Source: Xanthobacter autotrophicus | Lineage (GTDB): Bacteria > Pseudomonadota > Alphaproteobacteria > Rhizobiales > Xanthobacteraceae | Reading direction: 5' to 3' | Assembly: GCF_005871085.1 (NCBI RefSeq) | Contig: NZ_VAUP01000022.1 | Span: 186,001 to 250,000 of the forward strand | Length of the DNA: 64,000 nucleotides | Part shown: positions 24,302 to 28,037 of the stretch, one piece after another | How the letters are laid out: each line of letters opens with the position of its first letter | Numbering within the stretch: position 1 is the stretch's first letter | Program-made: the position numbers and the translations under genes | Notes under the pieces: model-generated | The model's database searches: none | What the model saw: the letters and a program-made list of their open reading frames with translations, nothing else | Told to the model about the DNA's origin: nothing

Positions 24302-24838
24302 TCAGGCGCCGGCGCGCACCAGCGTCACGACGGTGAAGGCGGCTTCGTCCTTCTCGCCCTGGATCGGGCCCTCCCGCTCGATCTCGCGCCATTCGGCCTG
24401 ATTGAACGCAGGGAAGAAGACATCGCCCTCCGGCGCCGCATGCACGTGCGTGAGATGCAGCGTACGGGCCAGGGGCAGCGTGTCATGGAACAGGCGAGCG
24501 CCGCCGATGACCATGATCTCGTCCGCGCCCATGGCGTCCGCCGCCTCATCGGCAAGGCGCAGCCCGTCCTCCAGGCTCCCCCCCTTCAGCACCCCTTCCG
24601 GCACCGTGAAGGCGGGATCGGTGCTGACCACCACGGAGGTCCGCCCCGGCAGCGGACGGCCGATGGATTCATAGGTCCGCCTGCCCATCAGCAGCGGCTT
24701 GCCCCAGGTGAGCGCGCGGAAGCGCTTGAGGTCCGAGGGCAGGCGCCAGGGCAGGCCGCCGTCGGCACCGATCACCCCATTCTGCGACACCGCGACCACG
24801 AGGGCGAGAGGATGGCGTTGCGCGTGGCGAGGTGTCAT
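24302..24838 (-). CDS. folA: Dihydrofolate reductase FolA
   Basis: A 178-residue enzyme reducing dihydrofolate to tetrahydrofolate with NADPH. Visible family segments are LVVAVSQNGVIGADGGLPWRLPSDLKRFRALTWGKPLLMGRRTYESIGRPLPGR and EIMVIGGARLF, the pterin and NADPH-binding loops. The catalytic acidic residue in the LPSDLKRF helix is Asp, as in E. coli. It lies 13 bases downstream of the FAD oxidoreductase gene on the same strand. thyA, its frequent partner in relatives, is not in this window. Convergent with asmA. Confidence 0.93.
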   Translation of the reverse strand: MTPRHAQRHPLALVVAVSQNGVIGADGGLPWRLPSDLKRFRALTWGKPLLMGRRTYESIGRPLPGRTSVVVSTDPAFTVPEGVLKGGSLEDGLRLADEAADAMGADEIMVIGGARLFHDTLPLARTLHLTHVHAAPEGDVFFPAFNQAEWREIEREGPIQGEKDEAAFTVVTLVRAGA

Positions 24839-24851
24839 GGGGCGATCTCCA

Positions 24852-26111
24852 TCATCGGGCGCTTTTCAGGGCGGCGAGGGCCGCGTCGGCGGCGGCAAGG
24901 CCGCTGAAGTGGGCACCGTGGCAGGTAGAGAAGGCCTCCCGCCCCAAAGCCTCCCCCGCAAAGAAGATCCGCTCGTCCAAAGGCTCATGCAGCCGTGCGC
25001 GCAGGGCGGCGTGGCCCGGCAAGGCGCAGGAATAGGCCCCGCCGATATAGGGCATCTCGGCCCAGCGGGTAACAAGGCTGCGCTTCACCCTGGTCTTGAG
25101 GCCCGCGCCGAAGGCCGCGCCCAGCACATCAAGCGCGAAGCCGACCAGCGCCCCCTCCCCCTCCGCCGCGATGGCGTGCGCCTCGGGTCCCGCCACATGG
25201 ACCAACGCCGCCGGCGCCCCGCCGGGCTTGAGCAGGGCAGAGGCACCGGCGCGGGCGGGATGGACGAGGTCGATGGCGTCGAGGGCGGTGCGCTCGGGCA
25301 TGCCGAACACGTCCTCATCGAACAGCAGCGCCACCTTCTCGGCAAAGCCCAGCGGCAGCGCCGCGAACGCCTCGGCAAAGTGGACCGGCAGCGCGGGCGC
25401 AAACGCCAGGCGACCGGAGGCGATCACCGCCGTGGAGACCGTCACGATCACCTTGCGGCAAGTAAGAACGCCCTGCGCTGTCTCCAGTTTCAGCCGCGTG
25501 CCCGACCGGTCGATCCGCGACACCGGACAGTCGAGCGTGACCGGCAGCACGCCCGCCGCCGCCAACACCAAGGCGCCATAGCCGTCGAGCACCGGCCAAT
25601 TGTCGTCGGTGTCGTGATAGTAAGCATAATCCACGCAGGATACGGCGTCCGGCCCCGCCGCCGACATCAGCGCCAGCCAATGTCGCGCCAGCGGCCCGAA
25701 CCGCCCCGGCGGCCCCACAGCCTCGGAAGCCGCAATGTCCCGCCCCGCGCGCCCGGTAGCAATGATGGCCTCGAACACCTGATCCATCTCGGCGTCCGCC
25801 TGCGCCTTTTCTTCGGGTGTGGCGAAGCGGGTGCCGAGATGCAGCCGTCGCGCGCTGGGCGTGTTCCGGCCCACCTTGAAGGCGAGCCGGTCGGCGAGGG
25901 CAGTGAAGGGATTTTCCCGCGCGTCGTGGAGCCAGTGGCAACCGAGATCGAACGGCACGCCGAGGGTCGTGGTGTCAGTGGCCGCGCGCCCGCCGGGGAT
26001 GGACGCGGCCTCGATGATACGGAAAGGGAGGCCGGCCTGACGCAGGCGCGTTCCGGCGGCGAGGCCGGCAGCTCCGGCGCCGATCACCACCACATCAGTA
26101 TCGGCGGTCAC
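24852..26111 (-). CDS. FAD-dependent amine-oxidase-like oxidoreductase
   Basis: A 419-residue flavoprotein. The N-terminus is the dinucleotide-binding motif DVVVIGAGAAGLAAGTRLRQAG ending in IIEA, followed by GGRAAT, the second FAD motif of the flavin amine oxidase superfamily. The C-terminus carries RIFFAGEALGREAFSTCHGAHFSG, which closes the FAD site. I chose the GTG at 26111 because no ATG exists in frame before the dinucleotide motif, and an earlier start would overlap sspB. Substrate unknown. It is placed between sspB and folA in a tight leftward run. Confidence 0.82.
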   Translation of the reverse strand: MTADTDVVVIGAGAAGLAAGTRLRQAGLPFRIIEAASIPGGRAATDTTTLGVPFDLGCHWLHDARENPFTALADRLAFKVGRNTPSARRLHLGTRFATPEEKAQADAEMDQVFEAIIATGRAGRDIAASEAVGPPGRFGPLARHWLALMSAAGPDAVSCVDYAYYHDTDDNWPVLDGYGALVLAAAGVLPVTLDCPVSRIDRSGTRLKLETAQGVLTCRKVIVTVSTAVIASGRLAFAPALPVHFAEAFAALPLGFAEKVALLFDEDVFGMPERTALDAIDLVHPARAGASALLKPGGAPAALVHVAGPEAHAIAAEGEGALVGFALDVLGAAFGAGLKTRVKRSLVTRWAEMPYIGGAYSCALPGHAALRARLHEPLDERIFFAGEALGREAFSTCHGAHFSGLAAADAALAALKSAR

Positions 26112-26133
26112 CAATGCGGTCCCGAAGGGCCAG

Positions 26134-26706
26134 CTACTTCTTGTTGCGGAAGACGTCGAGTTGCACCACCTGGGCGCCGCTCGCGGGCCGTTCAGGTGCG
26201 TCCTGGTCCGATGACGCGGGGTTGGATGCCGCGCTCGCCAGTGCCGGCTCGGAGGCCGCGCCCCGGGCGGGCTTGAGCGGAGCGGGGGCATTGGCGGAGC
26301 GGGGCGCCTCGAAAGGCGAGTCCTCGGTTTCCTCTTCTTCGCTCTCGTTCGCGGCGAGTTCGAACTGAAGGCCGAACTTCACGGAGGGGTCGAAGAAGCC
26401 CTTCAGCGCGGAAAAGGGCACCAGCAACCGCTCGGGAATGCTGCCAAACGACAGGCCCACCTCGAAGGTGGTGTCGGTGACGATGAGGTCCCAGAACTGG
26501 TGCTGGAGGACGATGGTCATCTCCTCCGGATACTTCTCCAGCATACGCTGGGAGAGGCGGACGCCCGGCGCGCGGGTGTCGAAGGAAATATAGAAATGGT
26601 GCTCGCCCGGCAGGCCTGTCTTGGCCACATCCAAGAGCACACGGCGCACCACGGAGCGCAAGGCCTCCTGGGCGAGAAGATCGTAGCGGATATGATCGAC
26701 CGACAT
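26134..26706 (-). CDS. sspB: SspB-family ClpXP adaptor (alpha type)
   Basis: A 190-residue adaptor that in alphaproteobacteria tethers tmRNA-tagged proteins to the ClpXP protease. Residues 1-~125 form the substrate-binding fold: ALRSVVRRVLLDVAKTGLPGEHHFYISFDT, then MTIVLQHQFWDL and VPFSALKGFFDPSVKFGLQF. An acidic, Ala/Pro-rich flexible linker (~130-178) leads to the C-terminal VVQLDVFRNKK, the expected ClpX-docking tail. The ATG at 26706 gives the standard start MSVDHIRYD; the upstream open frame is spurious. It lies directly downstream of the tmRNA gene on the same strand, which supports a shared job in ribosome rescue. Confidence 0.92.
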   Translation of the reverse strand: MSVDHIRYDLLAQEALRSVVRRVLLDVAKTGLPGEHHFYISFDTRAPGVRLSQRMLEKYPEEMTIVLQHQFWDLIVTDTTFEVGLSFGSIPERLLVPFSALKGFFDPSVKFGLQFELAANESEEEETEDSPFEAPRSANAPAPLKPARGAASEPALASAASNPASSDQDAPERPASGAQVVQLDVFRNKK

Positions 26707-26848
26707 GAGCCCGCAGCACTTCCCCGTCCGGCCCGGTGATCCAGAAGACTCCGGGCACCTTCCGGGGGGCCATACGGGCATGCCGTATCCGGAGGGTCTG
26801 GCGATGGAGCTTCAAACCTTCCCTCGTCCGGCCGGATGGAAGGGAAGT

Positions 26849-27177
26849 GGAGGCTTCTGTTGCCAGGTGCCTCCGAACCCCGCCTAGCCAGTGCTACCCG
26901 GTAGGACTTTGATTTCGATCGTCAAACCGCTCACGCGGCCAGAGCAACCGGAGCATAGTTGTCATTCGCAACTATCAGTTCGGCCCGATGACGGCGGAAC
27001 CATGCCGAGCGAAAGTATGCCCTTTACACCCTCGTCGATCCTATTTCGCCCCCGCCGGAGCCCGCCTCCCTGCAAGGGGAAGTTGGGCTTTGGTGGAGGC
27101 GCCGGGTACCGCCCCCGGGTCCGAAAGGCTTATTCCGACACCCATTTATCGCCGTATCCGACTTGCGTCGGCAGATC
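26849..27177 (-). ncRNA. ssrA: tmRNA, circularly permuted two-piece form
   Basis: Read leftward, the transcript begins with the acceptor piece (~27174-27091). It contains a CCGAC-GCAA-GTCGG hairpin, a 17-base T-arm-like stem-loop (CCGGG/CCCGG) and the 3' end CGCCTCCACCA with CCA encoded. A 37-base intervening segment (27090-27054) is presumably removed. The coding piece (~27053-26849) begins GGGGGCGAAATAGGATCGACG. Its first seven bases pair with CGCCTCC of the acceptor piece to form the seven-base-pair tRNA-like acceptor stem with one G-U pair. The tag reading frame lies inside. Order and structure match the alphaproteobacterial permuted tmRNA. The 3' end of the coding piece is approximate: I placed it at the GGAGGC/GCCTCC hairpin. 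Confidence 0.93.
26931..26969 (-). other. tmRNA tag-peptide reading frame
   Basis: Starting at the GCG resume codon after ATAGTT, the frame reads A-N-D-N-Y-A-P-V-A-L-A-A then TGA. The front (ANDNY) fits the SspB-binding end of proteobacterial tags and the last residues LAA are the ClpX degron type. Confidence 0.93.
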
Positions 27178-27178
27178 G

Positions 27179-27207
27179 AATATAGGCGTCGCCCGCCGGC
27201 GATGAAA
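27179..27207 (-). promoter_or_regulatory. Candidate sigma70 promoter of ssrA
   Basis: On the minus strand a -35-like TTTCAT (27207-27202), a 17-base spacer and a -10 TATATT (27184-27179) place the transcription start near 27172, just at the expected 5' end of the acceptor piece. Confidence 0.55.
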
Positions 27208-27350
27208 GGGGCGCGCGCCATAAAGTCCGCCGCCATCCCCGCCCTTTGTCGCGGAACCTTGCGCCAACGGCCCCGGTCTTCGACGGGCACCGGGCAGGTT
27301 CGCCCACGCGCCGTGCGGGCTTGGACCCTCCCGCCCGCGAGCGGAGGGTC

Positions 27351-28037
27351 TTACGGCCTGGCGCAATGACATCCTTCGAGGTGGTCGTCCACCAGCCCGC
27401 AGGCCTGCATGGCGGCATAGACGATGGTGGGGCCGACGAACTTGAAGCCCAGCCCCTTCAGCCGCTTGGAAAGGGCGATGGACTGCGCGGTCTGCGCCGG
27501 CACGTCGGCGATGCGGCGGGGCCGGTTCACCCGCGTCTCGCCGTCCACCGCGTCCCACATCAGATCGGAAAAGGCGATGCCTTTGTCCTGAAGGTCGAGA
27601 TAGGCGCGGGCGGAGGCCACCGCCCCCTCCACCTTGGCCCGGTTGCGCACGATGCCAGCGTCGGCCATGAGGGCTTCCACCTTGGCAGCATCGTAGCGGG
27701 CCATCTTTTCCGGCTCGAAGCCGTCGAAGGCGCAGCGGAAATTCTCCCGCTTCCTCAGGATGGTGATCCACGAGAGGCCGGCCTGGAAACCGTCCAGCAG
27801 CAGCTTCTCGAACAAGGCGCGGCTGTCGCGCTCGGGCACGCCCCATTCATCGTCGTGATAGGCCATATAAAACGGGTCGGTGCCGCACCAGAAACAGCGC
27901 GCGCGCCCGTCCCCGTGCTGGAGCAGCGGCGCGCGCTCCGCCTTCACCGCCGGAGCGGTTCCCTTCGCGCTTTCCGCCTTTGTGTTTGCGGCCTCGGGCG
28001 CACTCTTTTTAGCGTTTCCCGCCTTCGGCTCAGCCAT
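27351..28037 (-). CDS. tag: DNA-3-methyladenine glycosylase I (Tag)
   Basis: A 228-residue base-excision repair enzyme removing 3-methyladenine. The zinc-snap ligands are visible: Cys48 in RARCFWCG, His61 in YHDDEWG, and the terminal pair in DHLEGCHC. The substrate pocket reads LLLDGFQAGLSWITILRKRENFR, where the Glu found in E. coli Tag is Asp. The first ~38 residues are a Lys/Ala-rich extension not needed for the fold. The ATG at 28037 lies eight bases after the ygfZ stop, so the two form an operon. The enzyme otherwise looks complete. Confidence 0.92.
   Translation of the reverse strand: MAEPKAGNAKKSAPEAANTKAESAKGTAPAVKAERAPLLQHGDGRARCFWCGTDPFYMAYHDDEWGVPERDSRALFEKLLLDGFQAGLSWITILRKRENFRCAFDGFEPEKMARYDAAKVEALMADAGIVRNRAKVEGAVASARAYLDLQDKGIAFSDLMWDAVDGETRVNRPRRIADVPAQTAQSIALSKRLKGLGFKFVGPTIVYAAMQACGLVDDHLEGCHCARP

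Follow-up and report, generated by a model that had tools for sequence, protein, structure and literature searches.

Linkage of a permuted tmRNA gene to the gene for the adaptor SspB in Xanthobacter autotrophicus and across Alphaproteobacteria, and its possible connection with partial read-through

In Xanthobacter autotrophicus, the permuted tmRNA gene ssrA and sspB, which encodes the SspB adaptor, form a pair of adjacent genes whose order and strand recur among relatives more often than chance would give, and this linkage is real and widespread in Alphaproteobacteria. The pair was analyzed within a stretch of 64,000 nucleotides (the window), in which both genes are ordinary members of their families. 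The wide recurrence suggests that the two genes are kept together and are perhaps made together. The likeliest reason for the class-wide conservation of their order is partial read-through from the ssrA promoter into sspB, and we lean toward reading ssrA-sspB as an alphaproteobacterial tagging-and-delivery pair in which this read-through would couple the adaptor to the supply of tmRNA. The positions of all features are collected in Table 1.

The RF01849 covariance model (alpha_tmRNA), run as the initial annotation had proposed, matches the window with 295.3 bits (E 3.9e-85) against a gathering score of 50, is covered over its full length (model positions 1-355 of 355) and has a single match in the genome. 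RF04321 (tmRNA_permuted) matches at 27153-26931 of the minus strand with 152.5 bits, and ARAGORN reports a permuted tmRNA (tmRNA*) with the tag ANDNYAPVALAA. These last two results confirm the permuted order, in which the acceptor piece comes before the coding piece and a tag frame is present, and all three agree with the two-piece permuted ssrA claimed at the outset. Since the TATATT upstream of the acceptor piece aligns with the UAUAUU of the Rfam consensus, the CTTTCA-18 nt-TATATT arrangement is probably the ssrA promoter.

Table 1. Features of the ssrA-sspB region of X. autotrophicus (positions in the window)
Feature	Positions	Strand	Remarks
sspB, 190 aa, ClpXP adaptor by family	26134..26706	-	ATG at 26706, start MSVDHIRYDLLAQEALRSVV; stop ends at 26134; PF04386
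SspB C-terminal tail VVQLDVFRNKK, likely ClpX contact	26137..26169	-	tail positions conserved across 150 loci
ssrA-sspB spacer, 139 nt by Rfam end	26707..26845	-	no consensus promoter or terminator
Hairpin at ssrA 3' end, no U-run	26818..26847	-	predicted folds; paired in 17/18 compared sequences
ssrA, permuted tmRNA gene, 5' flank included	26846..27211	-	extent of the RF01849 match; ARAGORN 26840-27186
tmRNA coding piece, ends approximate	26846..27053	-	RF04321 and RF01849 alignments
Tag reading frame, ANDNYAPVALAA and stop	26931..26969	-	ARAGORN; frame located in sequence
tmRNA acceptor piece, ends in CCA, ends approximate	27091..27153	-	RF04321 and RF01849 alignments
Likely ssrA -10, TATATT	27179..27184	-	counterpart of consensus UAUAUU in RF01849; putative role
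Likely ssrA -35, CTTTCA	27203..27208	-	18 nt before the -10; role assigned from position

The product of sspB matches PF04386 with 168 bits (curated cut-off 27) and is related to the solved structures 2nys, 2qas and 2qaz, the last of which is a clear relative that we take to be the SspB of Caulobacter. Its nearest named counterparts are from Xanthobacter (best identity 91%). SspB, smpB and clpX each have a single match over the cut-off in the genome, and the presence of smpB and clpX counts in favor of the tagging-and-delivery explanation. By family, the protein would bind the tag and deliver its bearer to ClpXP, and AANDNYAPVALAA, a peptide that carries the ANDN positions, may be a ligand of the Xanthobacter SspB. 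Among the 150 SspB loci described below, the tail columns V180, L183, D184, F186 and R187 are kept in 141-148, and a strict tail pattern is found in 133, with the window, which has an extra N, among the 17 near-misses. The tail of E. coli SspB contacts ClpX, and the same role is predicted here. The E. coli protein is likewise a member of PF04386, which matches in two control genomes, E. coli being one; in that species sspB follows sspA, and ssrA is a one-piece gene located elsewhere. On the 3' side of sspB, also on the minus strand and within 24302-26134, lie a gene resembling those of FAD-dependent amine oxidoreductases (24852-26114) and then folA (24302-24838), separated by successive gaps of about 20 and 13 nt; both may share a transcript with sspB.

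The initial annotation had placed ssrA directly upstream of sspB on the same strand, 142 bases away; the order and the shared strand, here the minus strand, are confirmed, and the distance comes close, measuring 139 nt from the Rfam end of ssrA to the sspB ATG and 133 nt from the ARAGORN end. A consensus scan of 26650-27400 returned zero terminators and zero sigma-70-like promoters, a silence on promoters that is weak because the scan overlooks the likely ssrA promoter as well. The hairpin at the ssrA 3' end, compared between the window and 17 Xanthobacteraceae-type relatives, is predicted in all but one of the 18 sequences, and its stability in the window alone is not above that of shuffled sequences. 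It may serve in transcript trimming, in protection or as a weak stop. Outside this hairpin the spacer diverges quickly among the same relatives, and their spacers show no conserved block that resembles a promoter.

Recurrence was assessed in a class sample of 387 alphaproteobacterial genomes, with SspB in 356 and RF01849 in 370. The loci examined were the best-scoring 150 of the 356 SspB-bearing genomes, a choice that favors typical SspBs, and at each of them the sequence from 6 kb upstream to 3 kb downstream of sspB was searched by ARAGORN, with Rfam used where ARAGORN was silent or doubtful. Four loci with a contig end less than 1 kb upstream (G065, G096, G106 and G201) were set aside, leaving 146 evaluable. 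The comparison across relatives, which had been suggested together with the adjacency, bears it out: ssrA lies at most 400 nt upstream of sspB on the same strand in 107 of the 146 loci. It lies 0.4-6 kb upstream, also on the same strand, in another 18, is absent within 6 kb in 21, and is never found in the inverted arrangement (0/146 within the stretch examined). Of the 21 unlinked loci, 15 are negative by Rfam as well, five others have ssrA at least 14 kb off or on another contig, and in the last (G332) the genes are about 62 kb apart on opposite strands. Counted by family label (n = 68), the close pair is present in 52 families, the spaced form only in seven (two of which also show other states) and neither in eight, with one family not judged.

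Other samples were compared in the same respect. Among the 83 genomes listed for both genes, ssrA and sspB are at most 1 kb apart in 68, at most 10 kb apart in eight, further apart in four and on different contigs in three. For the best 80 of 147 named relatives, ARAGORN read a tmRNA in 78, always upstream of sspB and in the same orientation, with a distance of no more than 276 nt in 76. Seven further genomes of the same order include four close pairs (73-199 nt between the Rfam and Pfam ends) and three with about 3 kb between the genes, and the three same-order genomes of the 150 set that fall outside the window's family comprise two close pairs and one unlinked locus (G238). Of 30 small SspB-bearing genomes, 18 have an SspB frame just 3' of the tmRNA and co-directional with it; the remaining 12 have no SspB frame within the 1.5 kb flank (or as far as the contig end).

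Fourteen of the 18 spaced loci were inspected for intervening ORFs, and four of these 14 carry some on the opposite strand; the sole intervening ORF of one spaced locus (G227) resembles repeat sequence. With 18 of 146 loci spaced, some by such opposite-strand ORFs, and 21 of 146 unlinked, co-transcription is neither general nor essential. In three spaced loci of one family (L075, L101 and L106), a Metal_hydrol and Peptidase_M19 pair is inserted between ssrA and sspB, and in three of another family (L065, L164 and L165) a chromate transporter is inserted, accompanied in L164 by a ChrB-like gene; the inserted genes were named by Pfam in L075 and L164 and judged by eye in the others.

The genes flanking the ssrA-sspB pair are conserved about half as widely as the pair itself. 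The most widely kept gene downstream of sspB (within 1.5 kb), fumarate hydratase (PF05681), occurs in 25 of 68 families, and its counterpart upstream of ssrA, ThyX (PF02511), in 27 of the 52 close-pair families. Both figures come from ORF clustering followed by naming with Pfam; clustering may divide one family into several, which would make the counts for neighbors too low. Outside Alphaproteobacteria, ARAGORN and Rfam place a tmRNA within 1.5 kb of sspB at none of 12 loci; these are the best-scoring of 57 SspB matches in the same phylum, so a restriction of the linkage to Alphaproteobacteria is likely rather than proven.

ARAGORN ends were tried as a measure of the spacer and rejected, because they overshoot in some genomes (giving gaps of 0-4 nt), and the gap was therefore re-measured with AACAGAA, a motif conserved close to the 3' end of the tmRNA, as its starting point. 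For the 98 of 107 close pairs in which the sspB start codon could be placed, the median distance from this motif to the start is 92 nt, which is room for a promoter. Seven of the 98 genomes, from five families, have gaps of at most 45 nt, with a minimum of 17 nt; a whole separate promoter would there overlap the tmRNA gene, so that read-through is the simple reading.

Terminators were also considered as a deciding feature and discarded, as the scans do not discriminate linked loci from others. In sets of 98 sequences each, a lenient scan reported sites in 22 spacers, 25 regions 3' of sspB and 13 mononucleotide shuffles. A stricter one found terminator-like sites in 5/101 linked spacers and 2/14 spaced loci, for which the shuffle means were 7.6 and 1.2, respectively; with shuffling in two-base blocks (shuffle values in brackets), it gave 1/15 (0.55) for unlinked ssrA, nine of which are from small genomes with sspB excluded only within 1.5 kb, 1/5 (0.1) for loci with inserts, 0/21 (0.45) for further linked loci and 1/14 (0.35) for SspB-less genomes. 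Since unlinked and SspB-less ssrA genes are likewise without U-run terminators, the test is not discriminating. Taken together, the lack of an enriched U-run terminator and the seven very short spacers among 98 make a read-through supply of sspB plausible, and the common control of ssrA and sspB suggested by the initial annotation, which is partly supported, would be plausible as well.

The tag offers a further view of the relationship between the two genes. ARAGORN read 116 of the 150 loci, and one reading (G325) was spurious; the Rfam position was taken for linkage at that locus, which was excluded here to leave 115 readable tags. ANDN stands at the start of 112 of them. It is also kept in all six ssrA genes of SspB-bearing genomes that have no sspB in the fetched stretch, which argues that the box follows SspB and not linkage. 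RF01849 matches in 21 of the 31 genomes that lack an SspB match, in 18 of them above the cut-off; in this set ARAGORN read 17 of 24 loci, from which 15 two-piece tags were used and two one-piece tags left out. The 15 tags, drawn from five families, are non-independent; one of them has ANDN, the others having ANDD, AKRD, AKSD, ANES, ANDK, ANNN, AKNN and ANQN. Decay of ANDN in genomes without sspB would fit a box held by SspB. As proof of co-evolution, the box is weakened by a control set, 30 small genomes with SspB, in which ANDN occurs in 10 of 22 readable tags (8/30 unread) against 1/15 in the SspB-less set (Fisher p 0.014, with related genomes counted apart). These genomes vary too, and part of the ANDN decay thus goes with small genomes. 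A looser pattern, [AVSCMI]NxN anywhere in the tag, is found in 21/22 small SspB-bearing against 4/15 SspB-less genomes; since it was chosen post hoc and is favored by long tags, it is given no weight here.

In the reading that we prefer, ssrA would be transcribed from its own putative promoter into a permuted precursor that is cut to yield the two-piece tmRNA, which would rescue stalled ribosomes and append A-ANDNYAPVALAA. SspB would bind the AANDN end of this tag and pass the protein to ClpXP, which would recognize its LAA end. Some transcription from the ssrA promoter would continue past the weak 3' hairpin into sspB, and the supply of SspB would thereby track that of tmRNA, matching their dosage. 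The same arrangement could, however, reflect ancestral order only, with sspB expressed independently from a weak promoter of its own in the spacer and nothing selecting against linkage. Such an account would be in keeping with a median gap that lets most spacers hold a promoter, with the quick divergence of the spacer outside the 3' hairpin, and with an interruption of the linkage in 18 and its absence in 21 of 146 loci where both genes are retained. We nevertheless find it doubtful, if possible, given that the pair is present in 52 of 68 families against 25/68 and 27/52 for the best neighbors, that a few spacers are too short for a promoter, and that Xanthobacteraceae-type spacers contain no conserved promoter-like block.

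Linkage might otherwise be held by co-evolution of tag and adaptor and their joint travel, and not by shared transcription. The prevalence of ANDN in the SspB-bearing set (112/115, against 1/15 two-piece tags of SspB-less genomes) and in the six unlinked ssrA genes speaks for a tag matched to its adaptor, but its retention in the latter also argues that linkage is unnecessary for the matching. As ANDN is in addition present in just 10 of 22 small SspB-bearing tags (at the Fisher p given above), and the SspB-less tags are from five families and non-independent, we hold this explanation to be unlikely. The notion that the 3' hairpin is an efficient ssrA stop (independent of a U-run or assisted by Rho), with adjacency serving, for instance, a shared open promoter region, draws on the position of the hairpin, predicted directly 3' of the coding piece in 17 of 18 sequences. 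It appears very improbable, because the hairpin lacks a U-run, is no more stable in the window than shuffled sequences and was compared in Xanthobacteraceae-type loci only.

Each part of the preferred tagging-and-delivery pair is well known, and the class-wide linkage of a tagging RNA with its adaptor is the interesting element. The available text of PMC3985003 describes the permuted tmRNA gene and cites Lessner 2007 for alphaproteobacterial SspB, and Caulobacter crescentus is known to have a two-piece tmRNA and SspB (Keiler 2000; Lessner 2007, as given in the available parts of PMC3985003 and PMC8138137). As far as these texts go, the X. autotrophicus system resembles that of C. crescentus in its permuted tmRNA, its SspB adaptor and the delivery to ClpXP that is predicted here from the genes. 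In Sinorhizobium meliloti, according to the portions available, the two tmRNA pieces measure 214 and 82 nt and have an unstable precursor (PMC2873474), and ssrA is followed directly by SMc01450, a gene that runs in the same direction (PMC2573895). X. autotrophicus likewise has a co-directional gene next to ssrA and a tmRNA in two pieces, with processing known in S. meliloti and predicted here. The term SspB is absent from the main text of a tmRNA database paper (PMC11915505), and the available parts of PMC2780559 and PMC5742171 hold nothing on ssrA-sspB gene order. In the open-access literature as available, no statement of a class-wide linkage was found; one could be contained in Lessner 2007. 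Should read-through hold true, it would be a simple means of matching the supply of adaptor to the tag load, and the SspB-less lineages form a natural test for tag residues maintained by SspB.

A wider proposal can be put forward tentatively: the pair might be an ancestral alphaproteobacterial transcription unit of RNA and mRNA in which tmRNA read-through sets the dose of the adaptor, with AANDN upheld by SspB, decaying upon loss of sspB and multiplied in some small-genome tags (20-31 residues, at least two A-N-x-N) whose binding to the SspB dimer may be tighter. In some small-genome lineages, tags of 20-31 residues do carry repeated A-N-x-N boxes. Several further tags are of note in their own right. 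Two one-piece tmRNAs, reported by ARAGORN in genomes placed in Alphaproteobacteria that have no SspB match (L199 and L200), have the tags ADDNFEYAMAA and AEDNFEYALAA. Ten SspB-less loci from two families with genomes of 1.2-1.4 Mb have ANDD, AKSD or AKRD and ANES or ANDK in place of ANDN. Seven small SspB-bearing genomes, each with an SspB frame after ssrA (7/7), have tags of 24-31 residues that are mostly rich in Arg and Lys and contain several A-N-x-N or similar stretches. Finally, two N-D-N boxes are present in the tags at L120, L143, L156 and L225, as well as at L208 and at the SspB-less L188, with ANDNAQFVAANDNFVVEGDIAIAA and ANDNFVACNDNYGDAISVAA as examples; two such boxes could possibly act as double docking sites for SspB.
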